Shown in pieces: positions 3,036-13,540 of a stretch of DNA of 13,540 nt. How positions within the stretch are numbered: the first letter of the stretch is position 1; every line of letters starts with the position of its first letter. Source of the DNA: Blautia sp. (GTDB taxonomy: Bacteria > Bacillota > Clostridia > Lachnospirales > Lachnospiraceae); contig JAFWDX010000435.1 of the NCBI GenBank assembly GCA_017515945.1, positions 1 to 13,540 of the forward strand, in the 5' to 3' direction. The translations under genes and the position numbers were made by a program. The notes under the pieces are model-generated. The model saw only the letters and a list, made by a program, of their open reading frames with translations. It was not told where the DNA came from and did no database searches.

Positions 3036-4180
3036 CAGACTCCAAAGAGTGTAATTTCCGAGGGAGCCCACTGATTGCCATGACTTCTCAGATAATATCT
3101 GTAGTCATCCCTTATACTGCTTATAAGCTTTGGAATTTCAATTATGTCTCTGTTGCTATGATAAACACTTATGGCAAGCTTGGGCCTGTCCTTCAGAATA
3201 TGCTCCCTCGATCCAAGAACAGCTGACTGCTCCGCCCCTTCTATATCCATTTTCAGGAATGTAATCCTTTCCTGAATATCTTCATCCAGGGCAACAACCT
3301 CTATGTCGTCCCCTGCGCTCTCCGCCAGCCGGTTGGATGTGCTCCTTATATCCGACTTTGAAACATGCATCACCCCGGCCTTTTGTGCCGCTCCTTTTTG
3401 CCTTATCTCAATATTTTTATAAAGCTTCAGTTTCCTTTTCATCTTATCCACAGATTCGCCGGTAATCTCATAACAGTAGATTTTTTTGTATCTGCCGATC
3501 TGATCGATATACTCCAGGGCCGTATCCCCGATATAGGCTCCAAGGTCAACGATCACCTCATCCTCGTTAAAGGCAAAAATGTCCGGATCAAAATAGTCCG
3601 GGAAGGTATTTTCCTTCATGCCTGTTATAAGGCCCACATCAAAGGTCAGCCAGTTAAGAAGCATGTTGGATAGTACCCTCTTTGATCTGTAATCGGAAAG
3701 TCTTTCATAGAGCCAGACAAGATCACTTCTGTTTTCCTTCAGAATCGTGATCCTTTCACGTATTGCGCCCTGAGGTTTATCTGTGATATCCAGTTCTCCC
3801 CAAAAATAAGAAAAATCATGATAAAAATTGATAAACCGGCCTCTTGTTACTTCATCCATGTTCATGAAGGATTTTTTTATTTGGGAAGCCATGTCATCCG
3901 CGTTTACAACCTCCGCGTACATGATGGCATAATAGAAATCCCTGTCAATCTGATTCGGTCTGCTCACCTGTGAGCTTAAAAAGTCCCCCACCCTGGAAAG
4001 CCACTGATTTAATGTATGTATATTCTCAAGATATTGAACCTTAAAAAGAGTTATATTTATCCCCTTTACCACATCTGAGATATCTGAAGGAAGATCATTG
4101 ATCAGTGTACTGTCGTCCGTCGCAGATTGCCGGATCGCATCTGCAAGGGAAAGCATTCCCAGATATTCGGCATGATTCAT
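3035..4180 (-). CDS. FkbM-family SAM-dependent methyltransferase
   Basis: A 381-residue protein whose C-terminal part is an FkbM-type class I methyltransferase. The SAM-binding glycine motif is VDLGAYIGDT (211-220), with an acidic residue after the next strand in YCYEIT (235-240). The family-typical KMDIEGAE is at 310-317 and a YHSNRDIIEIP segment at 340-350. FkbM proteins usually O-methylate a sugar or polyketide hydroxyl. The first 170 residues or so are mostly helical in character and are not recognised as a separate family, though the YERLSDYRSKRVL segment (158-170) resembles a stretch often found ahead of FkbM domains in Clostridia. No signal peptide or membrane segment is seen. Its ATG overlaps the stop of the GT-NRPS gene as ATGA. 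Its position between two NRPS genes suggests it tailors the product or its sugar part; that role is inferred. Confidence 0.88.
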   Translation of the reverse strand: MNHAEYLGMLSLADAIRQSATDDSTLINDLPSDISDVVKGINITLFKVQYLENIHTLNQWLSRVGDFLSSQVSRPNQIDRDFYYAIMYAEVVNADDMASQIKKSFMNMDEVTRGRFINFYHDFSYFWGELDITDKPQGAIRERITILKENRSDLVWLYERLSDYRSKRVLSNMLLNWLTFDVGLITGMKENTFPDYFDPDIFAFNEDEVIVDLGAYIGDTALEYIDQIGRYKKIYCYEITGESVDKMKRKLKLYKNIEIRQKGAAQKAGVMHVSKSDIRSTSNRLAESAGDDIEVVALDEDIQERITFLKMDIEGAEQSAVLGSREHILKDRPKLAISVYHSNRDIIEIPKLISSIRDDYRYYLRSHGNQWAPSEITLFGV

Positions 4181-7100
4181 AATAAACGAAAGACCTCCTT
4201 CAGCCTGCTCTCAATTTCCCTGTACACCCTGTCCGTTACATCCATGTCGTAATAGCTCATCTCGATTACGAGTTCATCCCCGTCCATATACATCCGCTTA
4301 CCTCTCAGATCCTCAAAAATGATCTGTCTGGCATCCGTGATTTCAGGATCATCTAAAGACCCCGCCATGATGTTTGAATTTATCCCCTCTGCTGTTCCGA
4401 GACCGCTGAAAGGGATCCCTGCAAGCTTTCCGATCATGTCTGAATCCAGATACGAAAACTGATTCAGTGTAAGTATGTTGCCGGCAAATTCCTGAGGACT
4501 CATTTTTTTGTCGTAGACCACAGGCAAGACCGTAAAGAAATTTGCAACTATGCCGATATTACTCTCATCCCTTCCGGAAAAGGTACATAGAAATATGATT
4601 CTGTCCTCGGAAAGAGCCTCTGCCAGCGCCTTGCCGTACTCATACTGTATGTAGTTTTCAAATGAAATACCCAGAAATGCCGCTCTCTCCCGCAGTCGCA
4701 CCCGCATGGTTTTATCAAGTCTGACAAATCTTCTGCAGACCTTTGTATGTTCCTTGACGATTCCAAAGGGAGGATTGACCTTGGCCGGATGTGCATCCTT
4801 AAGATAGCCTTTAAAAAATTCAGCTGCTCTTGCGATGTCTTCCTTTTGTTTTTTAATGATGCTTCTTTTTACTGAAATGAATTCATCCTCTGCTTCATCA
4901 GGTGAATTTATGCCATTGAGTTCTTTGAGGATGATCTCACTTCCTATGGCATCCGTAATCATGTGTGTCATCCGGACGAGCATCACATGGCTGTTGTCAT
5001 TTATCTTAAAGCAGGCAACGGAAAACAGGTCATCCTCGGCATCCATCATTTTCCAGAAGCCGCTGATATACGCAATCCTGGTATTTTCATCATATCTTGA
5101 GATATTCCTGTAGGTTACGGATATATCTTTGTTTTTCCTGACGAAGCCATAAACCTGACCCGAAGATGTTGTCCTGAATTCTGTCCGCAGCATGGAATGT
5201 CTTTTTACAAGGCTCTTTATTCTATTATGCAGAATATCCTTGTTGAGCTCTTTCGTTGTGGTATACTGAAGCCTGAGTGAATATCTGTAAGCCTCTCTGT
5301 ATTGAACAGGCATGGTAAAATAGCCTTTGGTGATCCCTGTAATCTCATAGGCGTATATGCAGTCTTCAAACAAAGGTTCGTTATACTCATCCCTTCCGGT
5401 ATCATTTAAGTATCCTTCGATAATGGATGGTTCTTCGTTTCCTGTCTTATCTGCAACTGTGAGGTTTTCCTCCGCAGCCCTTGCGAGCAGTACAGGGGAA
5501 GGATAGGTAAATATATCTTTCATTCCAACAGAAAGACCTTTTTTGCAGAGGGTGACGGCGAGCTTCACAGCTCTTATGGAATCCCCTCCAAGGTAAAAGA
5601 AATTGTCATTATCCCCGATATCATCAAGCTGAAATTCTTTCTTAAAGATCTCCAGAATAACAGGCAAAAATCTCAGGGTGTCATAAGACGGCGCCTTTTT
5701 ACCATCCATATTCTTATCTGCATTAAATTTTTCCGGCAGTACAAGGGCTTTAAGATCAAGCTTCCCCCGGTCCGTTACAGGCATCTGTTCCAGCTCAAAG
5801 AAGTGCTCCGGCATCATGAAATAGGGCAGCTTTTTCGACAGATAAACTCTGAGCTTAAATTCATCGATCTTTTCTTTGGCTGTATAAAAACAGCAGATCC
5901 CTGCGCCTTCAAAGGCTTTGGCCGCCACATTCACCATCCCGGGAAAGCTGATCAGTGCTTTTTCAATTTCCGAGGGGTCTATCCTTACTCCTTTTTGTTT
6001 GATCATCCTGTCGAGTCTGCCGCATATCATCAGCTCCCCGGTGCTTCTGATGTATCCCTCATCCCTTGAAATGAAGGTATTCAGCCCGGATCTGTCAATG
6101 ATAAAATCTTCATTGCTGCCATTAATATATCCGTTGGACACTCCATAGCCCTTTACGCAGACCCTTCCCTTTTCCCCACAGGGAAGAGGGTTTCCTGCCT
6201 CATCTATGATTGTCACACAGACATCCTCGTTGGGATTCCCGCAGTTTACGTCGTCCCCGGTAACTCTTCCATTTACGGCGGGTCCGGTCTCCGTGGTTGC
6301 AAAACCGCTGTATATTACCGCCCCTCCCTTAAGAGCCTTCTCTGCCCTTTCAATCTGCTCCTTTTTGACACCCTCCCCGCCATAGACCAGAAGTACAACC
6401 TTTTTAAAAAGGCCCTCATACTCCTCATTTGAAAACCATTCATCCGCGACAGATGGGACTGCGGAGATACTGACTCCTTCATCCGTCAAAAGGCACCTTT
6501 TTGCAAAGCCCGAGCGGATATCCCTGGCATTCCTTAAAAGACAAAGCTTCTTACCGAACAGCAGGGCCTCAAGGCTGACCAGCAACCCGAACAAAAAGTC
6601 TACCTCCATGTGAATAATGTAGGTATTGCTAACCCCGGCCTGATGGCAGTTTTTGACATTTCCGTCAAAGTGATACAGGAAACTGATGAAGTTCCTCCTT
6701 AAGAATTCAACCCCCTTAGGATTTCCTTCTGAGCCGGACGTGAACTCAATAACCAGCGGTTTGTTGTCGTTTATGGAAAGGGCTCCGATATCAAGATCGC
6801 ACTCTCTCCTGGAGCCTTCACTGTAGGTTATGACATCGATATCTTTGTTAAAGCGAGCTTTTGTGTTTATATTGTCTTCATCGGTCAGGATTATGCCAAC
6901 ATTGGCTGCTTCTGCTGCATAGGCGAGCCTTTCGCTGCTCCCATACTTTGACAATACCACCAGGGGATATCCCGACTTGATAACAGCTATGACCGAAACG
7001 ATCCTCTCTATGGAATTATCCATATATAAGCCGACGGCGCTCTTTTTATCATTAATTTTATGAATAATAAAAGCGGCAATCTTATCAGACAATTTATCAA

Positions 7101-8259
7101 GGGTCTCATAGGAAACAGAGCCATTATCCGTTACGATGGCTTCTCCCTTGTACTCTCCGATTTTTTCGACCATTTCCTGAAAGGTCATATCCAGCCGGTC
7201 CTGCTTATAGACGCGATGTCTGCGATCGACAAATATATCCGCCAGAAATTTCATCGAGGCAAGCTCTTTCCCTCCTCCGCTTCCGACATAGGGAATCGGC
7301 TTCAGCTTCTTTACATACTCTGACATTTTCAGCTTCAGCTGTGCCAGCATGGCGTTCTCAATATCTCCGCGGAGAATTACAGAACCCATCATCTCGACTA
7401 TGCTCCATAAAAAGAGATTATAATCGATGTCTTCCGTCTCGCATTGGGAAACAATCCTTTTTACAGGCTCCAGCAGCGCGTCGACGCTGATCCTGTCTTT
7501 AGATACGATATTCTGAAAAGTGGATCCCTTACGCTGCCAGTATGTATAAGCTGTTTCATCTGTCAGAACCGCGATCCTGTCTGCGGCGCCATAAAGCTTC
7601 GTTTCAAAACACAAATCCTCCAGGTACTCCAGATCGTTGTCAAAATAAGCTCCACTGTTTATGATGAACTTCCTGTCTATAAGCTTTGTCCCGAGAAACA
7701 TGGGCGCGCCGTAAACAAGCCTTCCAAGCTCATCCGCGTTTCTGCGCTTTTTTACACCGTCGGTTACACGCAGATATCTGGCATTGTCGATTATGTGGAT
7801 ACCCTCCAGGCTGTAGAGAAGAAGCGGCATGGGAAGGGGCATGACATTTTTCTGTACGCTTTCCTGCCTTGCTCCGGCAACCACCATCTGCGCCCCATGC
7901 AAAAGAGCCGTGTCAAAGGCTTTCCTGATAAACCCGGGATTAACCGTATCATCAGAGTCCAGGAAATAGACATAATCTCCCAGGGCTTCCATTAATCCCT
8001 TATTTCTGGGCGCGGAGGGAGTATGGTTTTCATCATTTAAAACGAAAGTCCTGACAGTATAGGTGCAATCGGCAAGGGCCTGATCCGCTTCTTTTATGTA
8101 TACGTCATCACAGTTGTGATAGACCACAACAAACTCAAGACCCTGCTTTTCAAAGAGAATCCCGGATACCGAGTCAATCGTCTTTTTAAACAGTCCGATT
8201 TCCGTATTGTGAACAGGGGTTATAACAGATATCCTGATCCCTTCAGCTTTATTTCTCAT
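4177..8259 (-). CDS. fusion of a family 2 glycosyltransferase-like domain with an A-T-C NRPS
   Basis: A 1360-residue chimera. Residues 8-250 look like a GT-A family 2 glycosyltransferase: ISVITPVHN (10-18), PSAPRNKG (81-88), GDYVYFLDSDD with the DxD motif at 101-104, and a later LEYLEDLCF (210-218). The usual DDGS segment is replaced by YHNCDD (47-52), so donor binding may be altered. Residues 250-355 are an unassigned linker. The adenylation domain (about 355-845) has A3 EFTSGSEGNPKGV (505-517), TTETGP (655-660), STGE (739-742), GRLDRMIKQKG (747-757) and catalytic K833. The carrier has S894 in LGGDSI. The condensation domain (about 975-1360) has LVKRHSMLRTEF (1017-1028) and H1099-MIT-D1103. 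The reading frame is uninterrupted through both parts. The start ATG overlaps the upstream permease stop (ATGA), with GAGG nine bases before it. Fusion suggests sugar transfer and aminoacyl transfer act on one product; this is inference. Confidence 0.92.
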   Translation of the reverse strand: MRNKAEGIRISVITPVHNTEIGLFKKTIDSVSGILFEKQGLEFVVVYHNCDDVYIKEADQALADCTYTVRTFVLNDENHTPSAPRNKGLMEALGDYVYFLDSDDTVNPGFIRKAFDTALLHGAQMVVAGARQESVQKNVMPLPMPLLLYSLEGIHIIDNARYLRVTDGVKKRRNADELGRLVYGAPMFLGTKLIDRKFIINSGAYFDNDLEYLEDLCFETKLYGAADRIAVLTDETAYTYWQRKGSTFQNIVSKDRISVDALLEPVKRIVSQCETEDIDYNLFLWSIVEMMGSVILRGDIENAMLAQLKLKMSEYVKKLKPIPYVGSGGGKELASMKFLADIFVDRRHRVYKQDRLDMTFQEMVEKIGEYKGEAIVTDNGSVSYETLDKLSDKIAAFIIHKINDKKSAVGLYMDNSIERIVSVIAVIKSGYPLVVLSKYGSSERLAYAAEAANVGIILTDEDNINTKARFNKDIDVITYSEGSRRECDLDIGALSINDNKPLVIEFTSGSEGNPKGVEFLRRNFISFLYHFDGNVKNCHQAGVSNTYIIHMEVDFLFGLLVSLEALLFGKKLCLLRNARDIRSGFAKRCLLTDEGVSISAVPSVADEWFSNEEYEGLFKKVVLLVYGGEGVKKEQIERAEKALKGGAVIYSGFATTETGPAVNGRVTGDDVNCGNPNEDVCVTIIDEAGNPLPCGEKGRVCVKGYGVSNGYINGSNEDFIIDRSGLNTFISRDEGYIRSTGELMICGRLDRMIKQKGVRIDPSEIEKALISFPGMVNVAAKAFEGAGICCFYTAKEKIDEFKLRVYLSKKLPYFMMPEHFFELEQMPVTDRGKLDLKALVLPEKFNADKNMDGKKAPSYDTLRFLPVILEIFKKEFQLDDIGDNDNFFYLGGDSIRAVKLAVTLCKKGLSVGMKDIFTYPSPVLLARAAEENLTVADKTGNEEPSIIEGYLNDTGRDEYNEPLFEDCIYAYEITGITKGYFTMPVQYREAYRYSLRLQYTTTKELNKDILHNRIKSLVKRHSMLRTEFRTTSSGQVYGFVRKNKDISVTYRNISRYDENTRIAYISGFWKMMDAEDDLFSVACFKINDNSHVMLVRMTHMITDAIGSEIILKELNGINSPDEAEDEFISVKRSIIKKQKEDIARAAEFFKGYLKDAHPAKVNPPFGIVKEHTKVCRRFVRLDKTMRVRLRERAAFLGISFENYIQYEYGKALAEALSEDRIIFLCTFSGRDESNIGIVANFFTVLPVVYDKKMSPQEFAGNILTLNQFSYLDSDMIGKLAGIPFSGLGTAEGINSNIMAGSLDDPEITDARQIIFEDLRGKRMYMDGDELVIEMSYYDMDVTDRVYREIESRLKEVFRLL
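4193..4200 (-). promoter_or_regulatory. strong ribosome binding site of the FkbM gene, inside the GT-NRPS coding sequence
   Basis: On the reverse strand AAGGAGGT, close to a full anti-Shine-Dalgarno match, lies within the last codons of the GT-NRPS gene and 12 bases before the methyltransferase ATG. The spacing is longer than ideal. The gene also starts by a four-base ATGA overlap, so termination-reinitiation may help. Confidence 0.6.
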
Positions 8260-8960
8260 GATGAGTAACCTCGTGCAAAATGTTTTGACACCTGTTTAAA
8301 AACACCGTCAATAACGAATACAAGTATCAGATAGATCATTCCTGCCAGAAGATATGCCTCAATATATCTGTATCCCGTTTCAGCACGTATTTTTGCCGCA
8401 GCCATCATATCCACAACGCCAATCCCGAACACCACAGAGCTGCCCTTTAAAAGGCCAAGGCAAAAGCTGCAGATATTCGGAAGAGCTATCCGAAAGGCCT
8501 GAGGAAGTACAATGTACCTGAAGGTCATAGCCTTTGAAAGTCCCAGGGAATATGCCCCTTCGTACTGGTCCTTTCCGACGCTCAGGATTGCGCCTCTCAT
8601 GATCTCTCCCAGAAACGCGGCAGAATAAAGAGTCATTGCCACACGCGATGCTGTCACATTATTGATGTCAGCCACGGAAACCTTCTTTACTCCTGCATAA
8701 AATACCATATTTATAATTTTAGGCATTCCATAATAAAATAAATAAATAATGACAATAAGCGGGCAGCTTCTGAAAAAAGAATAAAAAACCGACACCAGAA
8801 AAGACGCCACCTTAACCTTCTTTATCCTGATCAGGCACAGGAAAATTCCGATGAACAAACCCAGAGCCAAGGGTACAAAGGTAAGCAGCAAGGTCATCGG
8901 AATGGCAGATATCACATATTTTAAACTCGATGTTATAAAGTCAAAGTCAAGCATCACCAC
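8256..8960 (-). CDS. ABC transporter permease, polar amino acid type (HisM/GlnP family), second
   Basis: A 234-residue integral membrane protein with several hydrophobic segments (about 12-45, 52-78, 105-125, 160-190, 203-222). It carries the family's EAA loop with SLGLSKAMTFRYIVLPQAF (138-156), the cytoplasmic contact for the ATPase. Length and motif fit the His/Glu/Gln transporter permeases (HAAAP type), which pair as homo- or heterodimers to import amino acids or related small molecules. It probably pairs with the neighbouring permease. The start is uncertain among GTG 8960, GTG 8957 and ATG 8954. All lie at the stop of the upstream permease gene (TGA at 8954-8956), so the two are translationally coupled. 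Its own stop overlaps the ATG of the GT-NRPS fusion. The substrate cannot be assigned. Confidence 0.9.
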   Translation of the reverse strand: MVMLDFDFITSSLKYVISAIPMTLLLTFVPLALGLFIGIFLCLIRIKKVKVASFLVSVFYSFFRSCPLIVIIYLFYYGMPKIINMVFYAGVKKVSVADINNVTASRVAMTLYSAAFLGEIMRGAILSVGKDQYEGAYSLGLSKAMTFRYIVLPQAFRIALPNICSFCLGLLKGSSVVFGIGVVDMMAAAKIRAETGYRYIEAYLLAGMIYLILVFVIDGVFKQVSKHFARGYSS

Positions 8961-9643
8961 TTAAACAGTCTCCCCAGCCGGTGAAACAGTGCATCCACTA
9001 CGATAGCCACAAGCCAGTATATAAGCGCACAGGCAACATACATCTCAAAGCTTTTGCTGAAAGAGACACCGATATCAATCTGGTATGCTCTTCCCATCAG
9101 ATCCATAATTCCCAGGGTAAACAAAAGAGATGTTCCCTGCATGGCCATCAGAATACTGTTTCCCATGTTGGGAATGATGACCCTGAGTCCCTGGGGAATC
9201 AGAATATACCTGAAGGTCTTAGGTGCGCCAAGCCCCAGGGACTTGGCCGCGTCGATCTGCCCCCTGTCTATGGACCAGTAGGCGCTCTTAAACATCTCGC
9301 TTGCCTGGGCGGATATTTCTATTGCCAGAGCGGTCATGGCAAATAACTCTTTGTTTGCTCCGGCCGGACTGATCCCAAATAAGCTTTTTCTCAGACTAAG
9401 CCCCCCAAAGTAGACAAGAAATATCATGACTATGGTGGGAATACCTCTGATAATGTCCGTGAGAATATCAAGGGCTTTTTTTATTTTAAAAGAGCCATAG
9501 ATCTTACCTATGGCTCCCAGAAGTCCGAACATCCATCCTGTGATCAGGGCAGTCAGCATTATCCTGAAGGTTATCAAAAGTCCTGAAAAGAGCTTATCCA
9601 GGTGACTTATTATAAAACCTGTATCGAATGACTCTGTCATCAT
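8954..9643 (-). CDS. ABC transporter permease, polar amino acid type (HisM/GlnP family), first
   Basis: A 229-residue permease with hydrophobic segments at about 12-45, 65-82, 98-115, 150-180 and 200-220. Its EAA loop includes AAKSLGLGAPKTFRYILIPQ (132-151), followed by GLRVIIPNMGN (152-162). SLGLxxxxTFRYIxxPQ is shared with the second permease, so the two are paralogues and probably a heterodimer. Two adjacent ATGs (9641-9643 and 9638-9640) are possible starts; the first overlaps the binding-protein stop as ATGA. An AAGGTAG sequence lies a few bases upstream. No ATP-binding subunit is encoded anywhere in the window. Confidence 0.9.
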   Translation of the reverse strand: MMTESFDTGFIISHLDKLFSGLLITFRIMLTALITGWMFGLLGAIGKIYGSFKIKKALDILTDIIRGIPTIVMIFLVYFGGLSLRKSLFGISPAGANKELFAMTALAIEISAQASEMFKSAYWSIDRGQIDAAKSLGLGAPKTFRYILIPQGLRVIIPNMGNSILMAMQGTSLLFTLGIMDLMGRAYQIDIGVSFSKSFEMYVACALIYWLVAIVVDALFHRLGRLFKW

Positions 9644-10461
9644 TTAGCTTCTACCTTGAACAAATCATATCCAAACTGATCAACGGAAATCTCTGAAAGC
9701 GTCCCGTTATCCTGTAAGGTTTTCAGCGTTTCATTAACCGCGTCACATAAATCCGATTCATCCTTGTTTATGATCGGATAGGTAGGCACAACGGCCACCG
9801 GATCAGACATTTTAAGCCCTGCCGTCATATTCTCAGGCTGCAGATCAAATACCGGTATAAGATCCACCGCATAGTCATACTGCCCGTTCCTGATGCTTTC
9901 AAAGAGTGTTTCATAATTGGCCTGGGAATAGGTTTCATACTCCACCGGCGCGTCCTCATGCTCCTTGTTATATGCATCTACAATCAGCCGTATGCCGCTT
10001 GCCGCCCGGATCGGATACACCTTTTTTCCTTCCGCGACAGCTGTATCAAAGTCTGTTATGTCATCATCCTCTCTTTGTATAAAGCCCACAGGGGTATAAC
10101 CCATGTTGCTTTCAGGCATCAGATAGATTTCCAGTCTTTCATCTGTCTTAAAGAGTGAATTGATACCCATATGATAGGCTCCGGTCTGTACGCCCACATT
10201 CATCGCTTCTTTATCCACAACTTCATATACAAAATTGTATTCCTCAAGAAGCTCGTCGGCCTTTTTCATGACTTCAACATCATAGCCGGCAGGATTTCCA
10301 TCATCGTCGACATAAGTGATAGGGTAAAAGCCCGGGGCAACTGCCACTACGATCTCCTTAGCTTCCCCGCTCTCTTTACCTTCGCCGCATTCTGCCACAG
10401 CTGCCGTTGTGAATACACCTGTCAAAACAAGACCGATCAACATATATCTTTTCATTTTCAC
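9640..10461 (-). CDS. ABC transporter solute-binding protein, polar amino acid type (SBP family 3)
   Basis: A 273-residue exported binding protein. The N-terminus MKMKRYMLIGLVLTGVFTTA is a basic plus hydrophobic signal sequence, followed by AVAECGEG. The mature part has the family 3 signatures AGYDVEVMKKADELL (58-72) and GINSLFKTDERLEIY (99-113), where the arginine of TDER corresponds to the residue that usually grips the ligand carboxylate, and RNGQYDYAVDL (191-201) in the second lobe. It captures a small amino-acid-like ligand for the two permeases downstream. The usual lipobox reads VAEC, with glutamate where glycine or alanine is expected before cysteine 25. The start is read as GTG at 10459-10461, overlapping the NRPS stop as GTGA with GGAAAG six bases upstream; an ATG at 10453-10455 is the alternative. 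Ligand unknown. Confidence 0.9.
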   Translation of the reverse strand: MKMKRYMLIGLVLTGVFTTAAVAECGEGKESGEAKEIVVAVAPGFYPITYVDDDGNPAGYDVEVMKKADELLEEYNFVYEVVDKEAMNVGVQTGAYHMGINSLFKTDERLEIYLMPESNMGYTPVGFIQREDDDITDFDTAVAEGKKVYPIRAASGIRLIVDAYNKEHEDAPVEYETYSQANYETLFESIRNGQYDYAVDLIPVFDLQPENMTAGLKMSDPVAVVPTYPIINKDESDLCDAVNETLKTLQDNGTLSEISVDQFGYDLFKVEAK

Positions 10462-13400
10462 ATACCACTTTCCAGTAAATCTATAAATTTTTCGTATGTG
10501 GCTTCATCCTTAAGCATGGGATTATAGCTTATACGAATAAACATCTCACCGTTTTCTTCAAGGAAATATGCATTGATTCCCAGGGGATCAAATTCCCTTT
10601 CCTTTATGCGCTGCAAAAGCTTCCCTTCTGTATAATCAGGAAAGACCTCCGAAACAAGGATCGGGAAATTAACAGGGTCTTTTTCCGTCCAAATCTCCTC
10701 GGGCGTGATACACAGATGATTTTCAGCCTGGTAGACACCTTCCATGAACTTGTCCGCGTCCTGTCCCTTTTCTATAACGACTGGCATACGACAGCTCAAA
10801 TCGCCGACGACTTTATCCATTCCGTCCACCGGTATGTTTCTCCCGGAGGATGTTATATAAAATACGATCCTGTCTTTGTCAAAGGTATTGATCAAAGCAT
10901 TGGCATAGCGATAAAGGACATATATAAAGGGAGTCATCCCCGTCAGATTTTCCGTTTTCCCTATTGAGACCATTTTGGTAATGTTATTGTCAAAGCTCAT
11001 GAGGGGCATACCGTCAAAGGCAGGCATGGGCGGAAACCCGGAAGCATCGTTCATGTCCTGCATCTGAGGCATTCCAGGTTTTCCTTCCAGGTCAGGCATC
11101 GGGGGCATCCCGGGCATTCCTTCCAGGCCAGGCATCGGGGGCATTCCGGGCATTCCTTCCGGTCCCGGCATCGGAGGCATTCCGGGCATTCCTTCCAGGC
11201 CAGGCATCGGGGGCATTCCGGGCATTCCGGGCATTCCTTCCGGTCCCGGCATCGGAGGCATTCCGGGCATCGCGGGGGGGCCTTCCACCAGTTCTTTGAC
11301 GCAGGCGTAATCCGCTCCCTCTACATATCCTTTAAAAAATTCCAGCGCTTCATTTTTATTTCCTTCATCCCTGATCCAGGTCTGATACGCGAAATACGCG
11401 TCCTCTTCATCAGGAAGGGATGCTGCCAGAAGCTCGTTGATCAGGATCTGCTGACTCATGCCGTCAGAAATCACATGGGAGATCTTAATATGGAACGCAC
11501 ATCTCTCATCGTCAAGCCTGAAGCAGGCAAAGGCACACTCCCTTCTGCCCTCTTTTTCCTCCAGTTCTTTGAGATATCTGTTTTCATAATCCTCTATATG
11601 CGTTTCAACGCTCTCATCCTTGTCATTTCTGATATCCAAAAAGGATACATGTGGGAATGCTTCCCCAAAGCTCTGGATAAACTCTCCGTTTTCATAAGGC
11701 AGGAACGCACTGGTAAGGACAGGATGTCTTCTGACGAGAAGCTCTATCCTTTCTTTAAAGCTTTCTGCGTCATAGGATGCTTTTCCGATAAAGCTGTCCT
11801 TTATCCACATGGCCATCATGTCGTTTCCGGAAATCTCGGCATTTATCAGAAACTTATGATATTCATTGAGGACAGGGAGGCGATCGGTATGGCAGGTTTC
11901 TTTTGGGACACTGTCCGCTTTTTTGTCCTTTATGCAAAGGGCAAGATCCCTGAGGCTTGAAGAGAGCATGATATCCTTAAGGCTTACCGTAAGCTTTCTT
12001 TCTCCCAGCCCGCTTATAACCCTCAGTGCCTTTAAAGAATCGATCTCCAGCTCCATGCAGCTTGCGTCCAGGGAAGCATCGGCTCCTGTAATGTCCTTTA
12101 CGATCCTGCAGAGTATCTTTTCGAGATCGGTACGGATCTCATCAACCTTGCTTTCAACAGCTGTATTCCAGGGCTTTGCAAAATCTTCATCAAACATCCG
12201 GATCAGCTTTTGATAATCCGTTTTGCCATGAGACGTAACGGGAATGCTGCTTATATAAGTAAAGGAATGGGGCAGCATAAAGAAAGGCACCCTGCGGGAC
12301 ATCTCTTTTCTCAGGATCCTGGTTTCCGTTTTATGATCTGCTTCATAGAACGCAGCGATACGGTTATGTTCTTTTGAGTATACGACCGCCGCATTACGTA
12401 CATCCTTGCAGCCCTTTAAAACTTCCGTAAGCCCATCAAGCTCTATTCTCAGGCCATTGTACTTGATCATCCTGTCATTTCTTCCCTGGATCAAAAGACA
12501 GCCGTCCTTGCCATATACACCAAGATCCCCTGTGAGAAAATATTCTCTTCCATCGATTGTGACCGTTTTTTTTATCCCGGATGCCGAATAACCTTTAAAG
12601 ATATAATCGTTATCTACGCCTGTTTCTCCCGGACCGCCTCCTTCCTTTTCCTCTGCTATAATTTTATACGGAGTAAACTCCAGGCATCTACCGCTCCTTA
12701 TGTCCCTGCCGGAAATAAGTCCGCACTCGGTAGACCCGTAGGCATCCACGATTGCGAGATTTTCAGGATAATAATTTTTTACTTTTTCTTCCAGGGCCTC
12801 AGAAAGCTTTTCACCCGCAAAAAACAAAATACCTTCTTTAGACAAAGCCTGTCTGACACTGTCAGACTCTGCCATGGCCGTGTATTTTGAAGGTGTCATA
12901 AAAATGACGAACTTCTCATCCGAGTCCAATACTCCGGCCAGTTCCGCCGGCGAATTCATCTCGTCTTCAGCCATAAGCTTCATGCACTTATTGCCTGTAA
13001 GACAAAAGCCATATTCAAATATAAAAAAGGATATGAACGTGGCATCCGTAAGAGCTGCCGAAAAGGCTGCATCGCGAACTTCTTCTTTAAAGTTTCTGTT
13101 GATTTCTCCTGCTATTTTTCCAAAGGATTTCTGGGTATGGAGCACACCCTTCGGCACCCCGGTTGAGCCTGATGTATAAATGATAAGAGCCGTATCGTTT
13201 ATTTCCGCCTTTTTTACCCTGGATACATCAAATACACATCCCGGCTTCTTTAATTCCTTATACGTTTCATCAGTGATGATCATGTCCGGCGCAGCATCAT
13301 CAATAATAAAGTCATATCTGCTTTCGGGTATATCCTTTGAGAGCATGATTACGGCTGCCCCTGTGGCAAATACACCTGTCATGGCGCAGATCAGTTCATA

Positions 13401-13540
13401 AGACCGGGACATCTGAAGCGCAACTCTTTTTCCGGGTCCGATACCTGCTTTGATGAGATTTGCGGCAACCTGCTCACTTTCATCCTTCATCTCGGATGCG
13501 GTATAGATTCTGCCTCTGAAAATCACCTGAAAACCTTTGC
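10458..13540 (-). CDS. NRPS, A-T-C protein with a Met/Pro/Gly repeat insertion (N-terminus cut by the right edge)
   Basis: The frame is open to the window edge. The GTG at 13524-13526 is not a convincing start because the opening codons already align with the interior of the adenylation N-lobe in the sister proteins, so some residues are missing. Numbering from that GTG, the adenylation domain (1-450) shows A3 IYTSGSTGVPKGV (116-128), AYGSTE (262-267), LTGD (331-334), GRNDRM (348-353) and catalytic K435. The carrier has S497 in IDSL. The condensation domain (about 550-1022) has LLVRRHPVL (596-604), H684-VIS-D688-G and GMDKVVGDLSCRMPVVI (902-918). Between the two condensation half-domains, about residues 749-845 are a low-complexity Met/Pro/Gly stretch with 22 methionines. 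The pocket A4 motif is unusual, so the substrate is not predicted. It is the first visible operon gene and its stop overlaps the binding-protein start. Confidence 0.93.
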   Translation of the reverse strand, partial: KGFQVIFRGRIYTASEMKDESEQVAANLIKAGIGPGKRVALQMSRSYELICAMTGVFATGAAVIMLSKDIPESRYDFIIDDAAPDMIITDETYKELKKPGCVFDVSRVKKAEINDTALIIYTSGSTGVPKGVLHTQKSFGKIAGEINRNFKEEVRDAAFSAALTDATFISFFIFEYGFCLTGNKCMKLMAEDEMNSPAELAGVLDSDEKFVIFMTPSKYTAMAESDSVRQALSKEGILFFAGEKLSEALEEKVKNYYPENLAIVDAYGSTECGLISGRDIRSGRCLEFTPYKIIAEEKEGGGPGETGVDNDYIFKGYSASGIKKTVTIDGREYFLTGDLGVYGKDGCLLIQGRNDRMIKYNGLRIELDGLTEVLKGCKDVRNAAVVYSKEHNRIAAFYEADHKTETRILRKEMSRRVPFFMLPHSFTYISSIPVTSHGKTDYQKLIRMFDEDFAKPWNTAVESKVDEIRTDLEKILCRIVKDITGADASLDASCMELEIDSLKALRVISGLGERKLTVSLKDIMLSSSLRDLALCIKDKKADSVPKETCHTDRLPVLNEYHKFLINAEISGNDMMAMWIKDSFIGKASYDAESFKERIELLVRRHPVLTSAFLPYENGEFIQSFGEAFPHVSFLDIRNDKDESVETHIEDYENRYLKELEEKEGRRECAFACFRLDDERCAFHIKISHVISDGMSQQILINELLAASLPDEEDAYFAYQTWIRDEGNKNEALEFFKGYVEGADYACVKELVEGPPAMPGMPPMPGPEGMPGMPGMPPMPGLEGMPGMPPMPGPEGMPGMPPMPGLEGMPGMPPMPDLEGKPGMPQMQDMNDASGFPPMPAFDGMPLMSFDNNITKMVSIGKTENLTGMTPFIYVLYRYANALINTFDKDRIVFYITSSGRNIPVDGMDKVVGDLSCRMPVVIEKGQDADKFMEGVYQAENHLCITPEEIWTEKDPVNFPILVSEVFPDYTEGKLLQRIKEREFDPLGINAYFLEENGEMFIRISYNPMLKDEATYEKFIDLLESGM
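11083..11270 (-). repeat. in-frame tandem repeat, 36-base period, five units
   Basis: Five head-to-tail copies of a 36-base unit encode GMPGMPPMPG[PL]E. Unit positions are 11083-11118, 11119-11154, 11155-11190, 11191-11235 and 11236-11270. The fourth carries an extra 9 bases (one more GMP), and the last is clipped by one base at the array end. Two sequence types alternate, one encoding PGPE and one PGLE; the unit nearest 11083 has drifted to PDLE. Degenerate Met/Pro-rich codons continue to about 10992. All changes keep the frame. A run of seven G (11274-11280) sits at the other border. Confidence 0.95.
11274..11280 (-). repeat. homopolymer tract of seven C on the coding strand
   Basis: Immediately before the tandem array, in the direction of translation, the coding strand reads seven C in the Gly-Pro-Pro-Ala codons. 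Such tracts can slip during replication. A length change would break the frame of the condensation domain, so it could act as an on/off site, but only one length is visible here. Confidence 0.6.

Follow-up and report, generated by a model that had tools for sequence, protein, structure and literature searches.

What is a sugar-transferring domain doing in the same polypeptide as a complete module of a nonribosomal peptide synthetase (NRPS)? The question is raised by a protein encoded on the minus strand of the window analysed here, the 13,540 nucleotides of contig JAFWDX010000435.1 from Blautia sp. (GCA_017515945.1), in which a glycosyltransferase family 2 (GT2) domain is followed by an adenylation (A), a carrier (T) and a condensation (C) domain. 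The fusion is real, conserved, uncommon and part of a wider pattern. The explanation that we favour, with a probability of roughly 0.55, is that the protein is a single bifunctional enzyme belonging to an NRPS-like biosynthetic cluster, which would bring acid activation and sugar transfer to the same scaffold. Its parts are as follows.

4177..8259, minus strand: GT2-A-T-C fusion protein, 1360 aa; open frame, Pfam domains and a single-chain orthologue, 68% identical, at L032:8001-12074
7270..8259, minus strand: GT2 domain (GT-A fold), residues 1-330, of the His-Asn (HN) type
8113..8118, minus strand: codons of His48-Asn49, replacing Asp-Gly of the usual DDGS motif; from the HN census
7948..7965, minus strand: FLDSDD with D101, D103 and D104 (TarS D91, D93 and D94); invariant in 25 of 25 genes, with support from an alignment to TarS and from TarS mutants
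7612..7617, minus strand: E214-D215, putative catalytic-base pair (TarS E177-D178); D215 invariant in 25 of 25 genes, E in 22
5734..7143, minus strand: A domain, residues 373-842, with Leu at the Asp235 position; Pfam and alignments
5479..5658, minus strand: T domain, residues 868-927, with GGDS; PF00550 (39.3 bits) and motif
4180..5367, minus strand: C domain, residues 965-1360, with HMITD

Are all these domains complete? The initial annotation, made from the letters alone, had described an unbroken frame carrying the GT2 motifs ISVITPVHN, RNKG and LDSDD; its coordinates, strand and length are correct, and the motifs lie at residues 10-18, 85-88 and 100-104. The Pfam search that it had proposed places four domains in one chain, each above its cut-off: Glycos_transf_2 (residues 11-143, 51.7 bits, cut-off 23.3), AMP-binding (PF00501, 373-711, 157.5 against 29.9), PP-binding (868-927, cut-off 20.8) and Condensation (980-1251, 69.3 against 30.6). 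The A domain shows FTSGSEGNPKG, GRLDRMIKQKGVRI and RGKLD, the first and last of which supply the ATP-binding motif and the catalytic Lys, and the carrier has the Ser of a GGxS motif in GGDS at residues 891-894. In the C domain, which has two lobes and an HxxxD motif (HMITD), the best Pfam stretch spans merely positions 14-303 of the 456 in the profile; in the predicted fold of residues 945-1360 (pLDDT 82.0), 385 of 416 residues align with a solved C domain, so that by this model the two-lobed fold is complete. The protein is a complete A-T-C with a GT2 domain in the same chain.

Could two genes simply have been united by an assembly or sequencing artefact? The window is the whole contig of a metagenome-assembled genome (MAG) that is 79% complete, with 2.6 Mb in 518 contigs, a setting in which such errors may be suspected. 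A scan that covered 84,980 species by one genome each, and that reaches only close relatives, returned a single locus, L032 (CAMJPM010000036.1), from an uncultured Lachnospiraceae MAG. Its orthologue is 68% identical with all 1360 query residues aligned and a single gap of three residues, located in the A-T linker. Identity amounts to 68% in the GT2 domain, 75% in the A domain and 79% in the joint between them (residues 331-372), where there is no indel. Over the whole chain dN is 0.22 and dS 5.6; dS is 2.3 in the joint and 2.0 in the A domain, these being the three of six stretches for which it could be computed (GT2, T and C alone gave no value). Gene order is also shared, running A-T-C, solute-binding protein, two permeases, GT2-A-T-C, FkbM-type methyltransferase, A-T-C, and the six partner proteins are 61-80% identical. 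Because an independent MAG thus holds the same unbroken frame in a syntenic cluster, with a conserved protein and dS near or above 2, an artefact is extremely improbable, and the sequencing error or lost stop that the initial annotation had named as a way to be wrong is rejected on these grounds. Nor was a split into two genes at the joint seen: the only full-length homologue found is itself a single chain. With the same frame conserved in L032 the open frame is not chance, and by these substitution values the single-chain fusion is under selection.

What kind of transferase is the GT2 domain? It has a complete GT-A fold, nearest to TarP, TarS and RmlT. In usual GT2 enzymes strand 2 ends in an Asp-Asp-Gly-Ser-like motif, and the second Asp of the pair we take to be the equivalent of SpsA Asp39. 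The strand ends here in Tyr-His-Asn-Cys, and alignment to ordinary GT2 domains and to TarS puts His48 at the Asp39 position. In SpsA this Asp contacts N3 of uracil (PMC3849446, in the text available). The DxD motif and the catalytic Asp are present (D101, D103, D104, D215), and R85, D101, D103, D104 and D215, which align to TarS R75, D91, D93, D94 and D178, are invariant in all 25 members of the clade defined below. According to the accessible part of PMC5156392, the TarS changes R75A, D91A, D93A and D94A abolish activity and D178N severely lowers it. We infer an altered nucleotide-base pocket, with His-Asn for Asp-Gly and TarS-like catalytic residues kept, and predict an inverting GT-A transferase whose sugar transfer would depend on a sugar nucleotide. 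The same change can be read the other way, the domain having given up glycosyl transfer for a structural, docking or different group-transfer role: the base-reading Asp is His and the next residue Asn in 25 of 25 clade genes, and E214 is lost in three of them. Beside the invariant catalytic residues, we consider such a loss of transfer quite doubtful.

Is the His-Asn pair a peculiarity of this protein? Among the GT2 stretches of the regions examined, HN stands at positions 48-49 in 26 of 26 rows scoring at least 177 bits and in 0 of 37 rows at or below 133 bits; the 26 rows represent 25 distinct genes, as L028 and L044 hold one same gene. In a tree of 49 rows, 25 of them HN and 24 ordinary, a branch with support of 100/100 separates the HN rows from the rest. 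By motif and tree, the GT2 domain of the fusion belongs to a discrete HN clade.

And what does this clade keep company with? In 17 of the 25 HN genes the GT2 domain forms one chain with an acid-activating enzyme: 14 are GT2-GH3 proteins (GH3 above the Pfam cut-off in all 14) and three carry an A-T-C, in both orders (GT2-A-T-C in the window and in L032, A-T-C-GT2 in L120). The remaining eight lie no more than 6.5 kb from an A or GH3 gene, four of them no more than 60 bases away. All 24 HN regions contain an A or GH3 gene, versus one of 24 control regions that hold ordinary GT2 genes and were searched with the same profiles; the lone positive there is an 82-bit A-type gene lying at the margin of L152. 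C-domain genes occur in 13 of 24 versus none of 24, with a C profile that overlooks one or more C domains of Pfam level (L125:2394-3800). The HN regions stem from fewer than 24 places (L028 and L044 are one contig, as are L037 and L038). The controls comprise 20 high-ranking contigs of the own-genus search, two more of that list (L079, L080) and two regions from the family-sample search (L126, L127), and several are short (5 to 10 kb). A recurrent fusion of HN-clade GT2 domains to acid-activating enzymes is therefore supported by these comparisons. The candidate that the GT2 domain is an ordinary polysaccharide transferase was rejected on the motif census, the tree, the neighbourhood control and the score gap (at least 335 versus 119 bits), the last being circular if taken alone, as the profile was trained on HN-type sequences.

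The joining itself looks to have happened more than once. L120:9808-13872 encodes a Pfam-confirmed chain of 1354 aa in which A-T-C precedes an HN-type GT2, the reverse of the order in the window, and a stand-alone HN-type GT2 gene adjoins it. In genome G018, L025:8196-13130 encodes 1644 aa with an ordinary GT2 (DDGS), A-T-C and a hydrolase. Judged from these arrangements, the union of GT2 with A-T-C seems to have arisen on at least three separate occasions. Just upstream of the L025 gene, L025:6051-8135 encodes a GT8 domain fused to the initial part of an A domain. The 14 GT2-GH3 fusions lie in L111 (two), L113, L114, L115, L117, L118, L119, L122, L123, L124, L026, L044 and L077; near several of them are genes that by eye look transporter-like and proteins of about 440 aa, two of which (L111:7011-8324 and L122:12044-13339, the only ones run) gave no Pfam match.

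Some relatives may record the opposite process. In the tree the window-type GT2 is sister, with 100/100 support, to two shorter GT2 proteins, one of which, L037:5860-7110, has a tail similar to the first lobe of the fusion's own C domain (E 2.7e-5, a weak label), a hint that the shorter proteins could have arisen from such a fusion by loss of A-T. A search for a copy of L037:5860-7110, the second GT2, in the window's incomplete genome found only the fusion itself and two weak matches elsewhere. The tail of an L112 protein gives 18 bits with our own profile, also a weak label; the GT2 tail in G036 ('Cfrag' in the tree) has no C-domain match, and a GT2-C join in G712 rests on a Pfam match of 17.6 bits, below the cut-off.

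How widespread is the HN type? It occurs in four of 64 genomes of the own genus, with six matches at 335 bits or more and the next at 119. In the wider samples mostly five to seven candidates were scored per genome, so that the counts are lower bounds: besides the window, at least 12 matches at 177 bits or more in at least seven of 397 genomes of the family, and HN-type domains in at least six of 392 genomes of the order, five of them new and one (G713) outside the family. With a wider profile (A3), no candidate scored in the class (391 genomes) or phylum (299 genomes) exceeded 142 bits besides the window, a weak negative for HN-type domains outside the order given that the first five (class) or seven (phylum) candidates were scored for most genomes; seven of eight other matches fetched there, all but the one in L133, gave Asp- or Asn-Asp-type motifs. 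It is possible, and for now a tentative view, that HN-type GT2 domains are a clade not described before and dedicated to adenylation-activated acids, so far seen only in their own order (Lachnospirales). They would read a non-uridine donor, and carrier-bound substrates, or adenylation-linked ones, would be glycosylated while on the assembly line, with sugar transfer as part of an A-T-C or GH3 machine rather than as tailoring added afterwards.

Which acid would be activated? The position of Asp235, the residue that anchors the alpha-amino group, is Leu in the fusion, and alignment to LgrA agrees that an Asp235-type residue is absent; in the A domains of the two neighbouring A-T-C proteins it is Val and Ile. 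This test bears on the substrate, not on the status of the protein as an A-T-C module. Eleven of 42 A domains aligned alike keep the Asp. The acid adenylated by the fusion is thus probably not an ordinary alpha-amino acid.

The other genes of the window, all on the minus strand, give this activity a setting.

10458..13538, minus strand: A-T-C protein upstream of the fusion, truncated at the contig end, whose C domain holds a Pro/Met-rich insert; Pfam, 61% identical to L032:2891-5800
9640..10461, minus strand: family-3 solute-binding protein; PF00497, 75% identical in L032
8954..9643, minus strand: ABC permease 1 of polar amino-acid type; PF00528 and NCBIfam, 80% identical in L032
8256..8960, minus strand: ABC permease 2 of polar amino-acid type, its end overlapping the start of the fusion gene; PF00528, 71% identical in L032
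3035..4180, minus strand: FkbM-type methyltransferase; PF05050 and TIGR01444, 68% identical in L032
90..3071, minus strand: downstream A-T-C protein; Pfam, 77% identical to L032:13209-16157

L032 extends further on both sides, with a condensation-containing gene and an A domain upstream and a radical-SAM protein, a second GT2 and a MATE transporter downstream. The importer genes of amino-acid type (8256-10461) sit inside the NRPS-like cluster, and no ATPase gene was seen by eye among the open reading frames of the window or of L032. About 200 N-terminal residues of the FkbM-type protein have no Pfam match at E 0.01 and the protein is 68% identical over its full length in L032. The insert in the upstream A-T-C is a Pro/Met/Gly-rich tandem repeat at 11060-11287 (minus strand) with units of 36 and 45 bases, shorter in the L032 orthologue. 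In PADLOC, the three NRPS-like proteins matched no defence family and the FkbM-type protein gave one weak match (mad2, E 1.2e-4). Elsewhere, next to a C-domain fragment, L039:778-2532 encodes a MATE transporter whose C-terminal HATPase_c_2 match is below the cut-off; the STAS match of L112:4928-6133, in a related NRPS cluster, is below its cut-off as well.

How might these parts work together? In the bifunctional enzyme that we favour, the A domain would adenylate a carboxylic acid, probably not an ordinary alpha-amino acid, and load it onto the carrier; the GT2 domain would add a sugar to the same scaffold, be it the carrier-bound acyl unit or an acceptor; and the C-terminal C domain, which no further module follows in the chain, would transfer the acyl group to an acceptor outside the chain, where a hydroxyl or amine on either the glycosylated acceptor or the next partner would receive it. 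The FkbM-type methyltransferase, the ABC proteins and both neighbouring A-T-C proteins would serve the same pathway, and its product would be a small molecule, acyl or peptidyl, that carries a sugar. The wider pattern of GT2 and acid-activation fusions favours sugar transfer and acid activation on one molecule or in one pathway. Several points weigh against this proposal. We infer its donor, acid, acceptor and order of steps from sequence. Because seven regions (L111, L113, L115, L117, L118, L123 and L124) show no separate A or C gene near their GT2-GH3 genes with our profiles, GT2-GH3 proteins are not always an NRPS matter. Loss of the Asp is not special to the fusion either, as 31 of the 42 aligned A-type domains are also without it, including some that resemble plain acyl ligases. 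Finally, the exact GT2-A-T-C order with an HN-clade domain is rare, being found in one of 64 own-genus genomes and one further MAG (L032), and no GT2-A-T-C gene lies on the contig, 17.9 kb long, of the related cluster G223:C78. A search for this architecture across relatives, as the initial annotation had advised, has accordingly confirmed it in a second MAG, with the exact order so far limited to these two.

Could the joining be a mere convenience? GT2 and A-T-C might each serve a different molecule of one pathway and be linked only for co-expression or co-localisation, as stand-alone HN-type GT2 genes beside NRPS or GH3 genes would suggest (4 of 25: G018 C33, G329, G713 and G223 C3); against this stands that the joining recurs, that the order of the parts varies and that the adenylating partner comes from two families, and we regard a mere convenience as rather unlikely. 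The more specific scheme of the initial annotation, in which sugar transfer and acyl or aminoacyl transfer act on one molecule and an amino acid loaded by A-T is placed by the C domain onto the sugar just added by GT2, has every needed domain and a precedent in the streptothricin C domain, which uses an amino-sugar acceptor (PMC4351081, in the portion available). The Leu, Val and Ile found in the A domains of the window in place of the Asp that holds the alpha-amino group speak against it, and we think it unlikely. What endures of that suggestion is the coupling, which would fit the recurrent fusion with acid-activating enzymes; the amino acid is its weakened part.

How does the proposed enzyme compare with known systems? 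We know of no fusion of TarS, TarP or RmlT to an A-T-C; to our knowledge the NRPS proteins AmbB and AmbE have no GT2 domain, and the condensation enzymes SgcC5 and VibH are stand-alone and likewise without GT2. The resemblance of the window GT2 to TarS, TarP and RmlT is one of fold: in alignments TarS and RmlT have Asp at the base-reading site where the window GT2 has His, and the likeness to TarS and TarP does not imply a similar acceptor, which for TarS is poly-ribitol phosphate (PMC5156392, in its available text). Lincosamide synthetase and the streptothricin NRPS are precedents for the work of NRPS parts with a sugar, as they join an acyl unit to an amino sugar; the available portion of PMC4351081 describes no GT2-A-T-C single chain for either, and has the lincosamide carrier fused to sugar-biosynthesis enzymes. 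Literature searches for such fusions or clusters among open-licence PMC papers listed none whose title or abstract opening describes a GT2-A-T-C or GT2-GH3 chain. Both halves of the fusion are known families; what is new to us is the GT2 clade with its HN motif and the way it repeatedly joins up with acid-activating enzymes. Should a synthetase module indeed include sugar transfer, the assembly line could program glycosylation, which then would not have to wait for release. Such systems can be looked for with the HN motif as a simple marker in sequence, and the fusions with A-T-C and GH3, met repeatedly, hint at a little-known class of sugar-bearing products. Close counterparts are also the GT2-GH3 proteins of the relatives, which have a GT2 domain of the same HN clade and likewise an acid-adenylating partner, with GH3 in the place of A-T-C.

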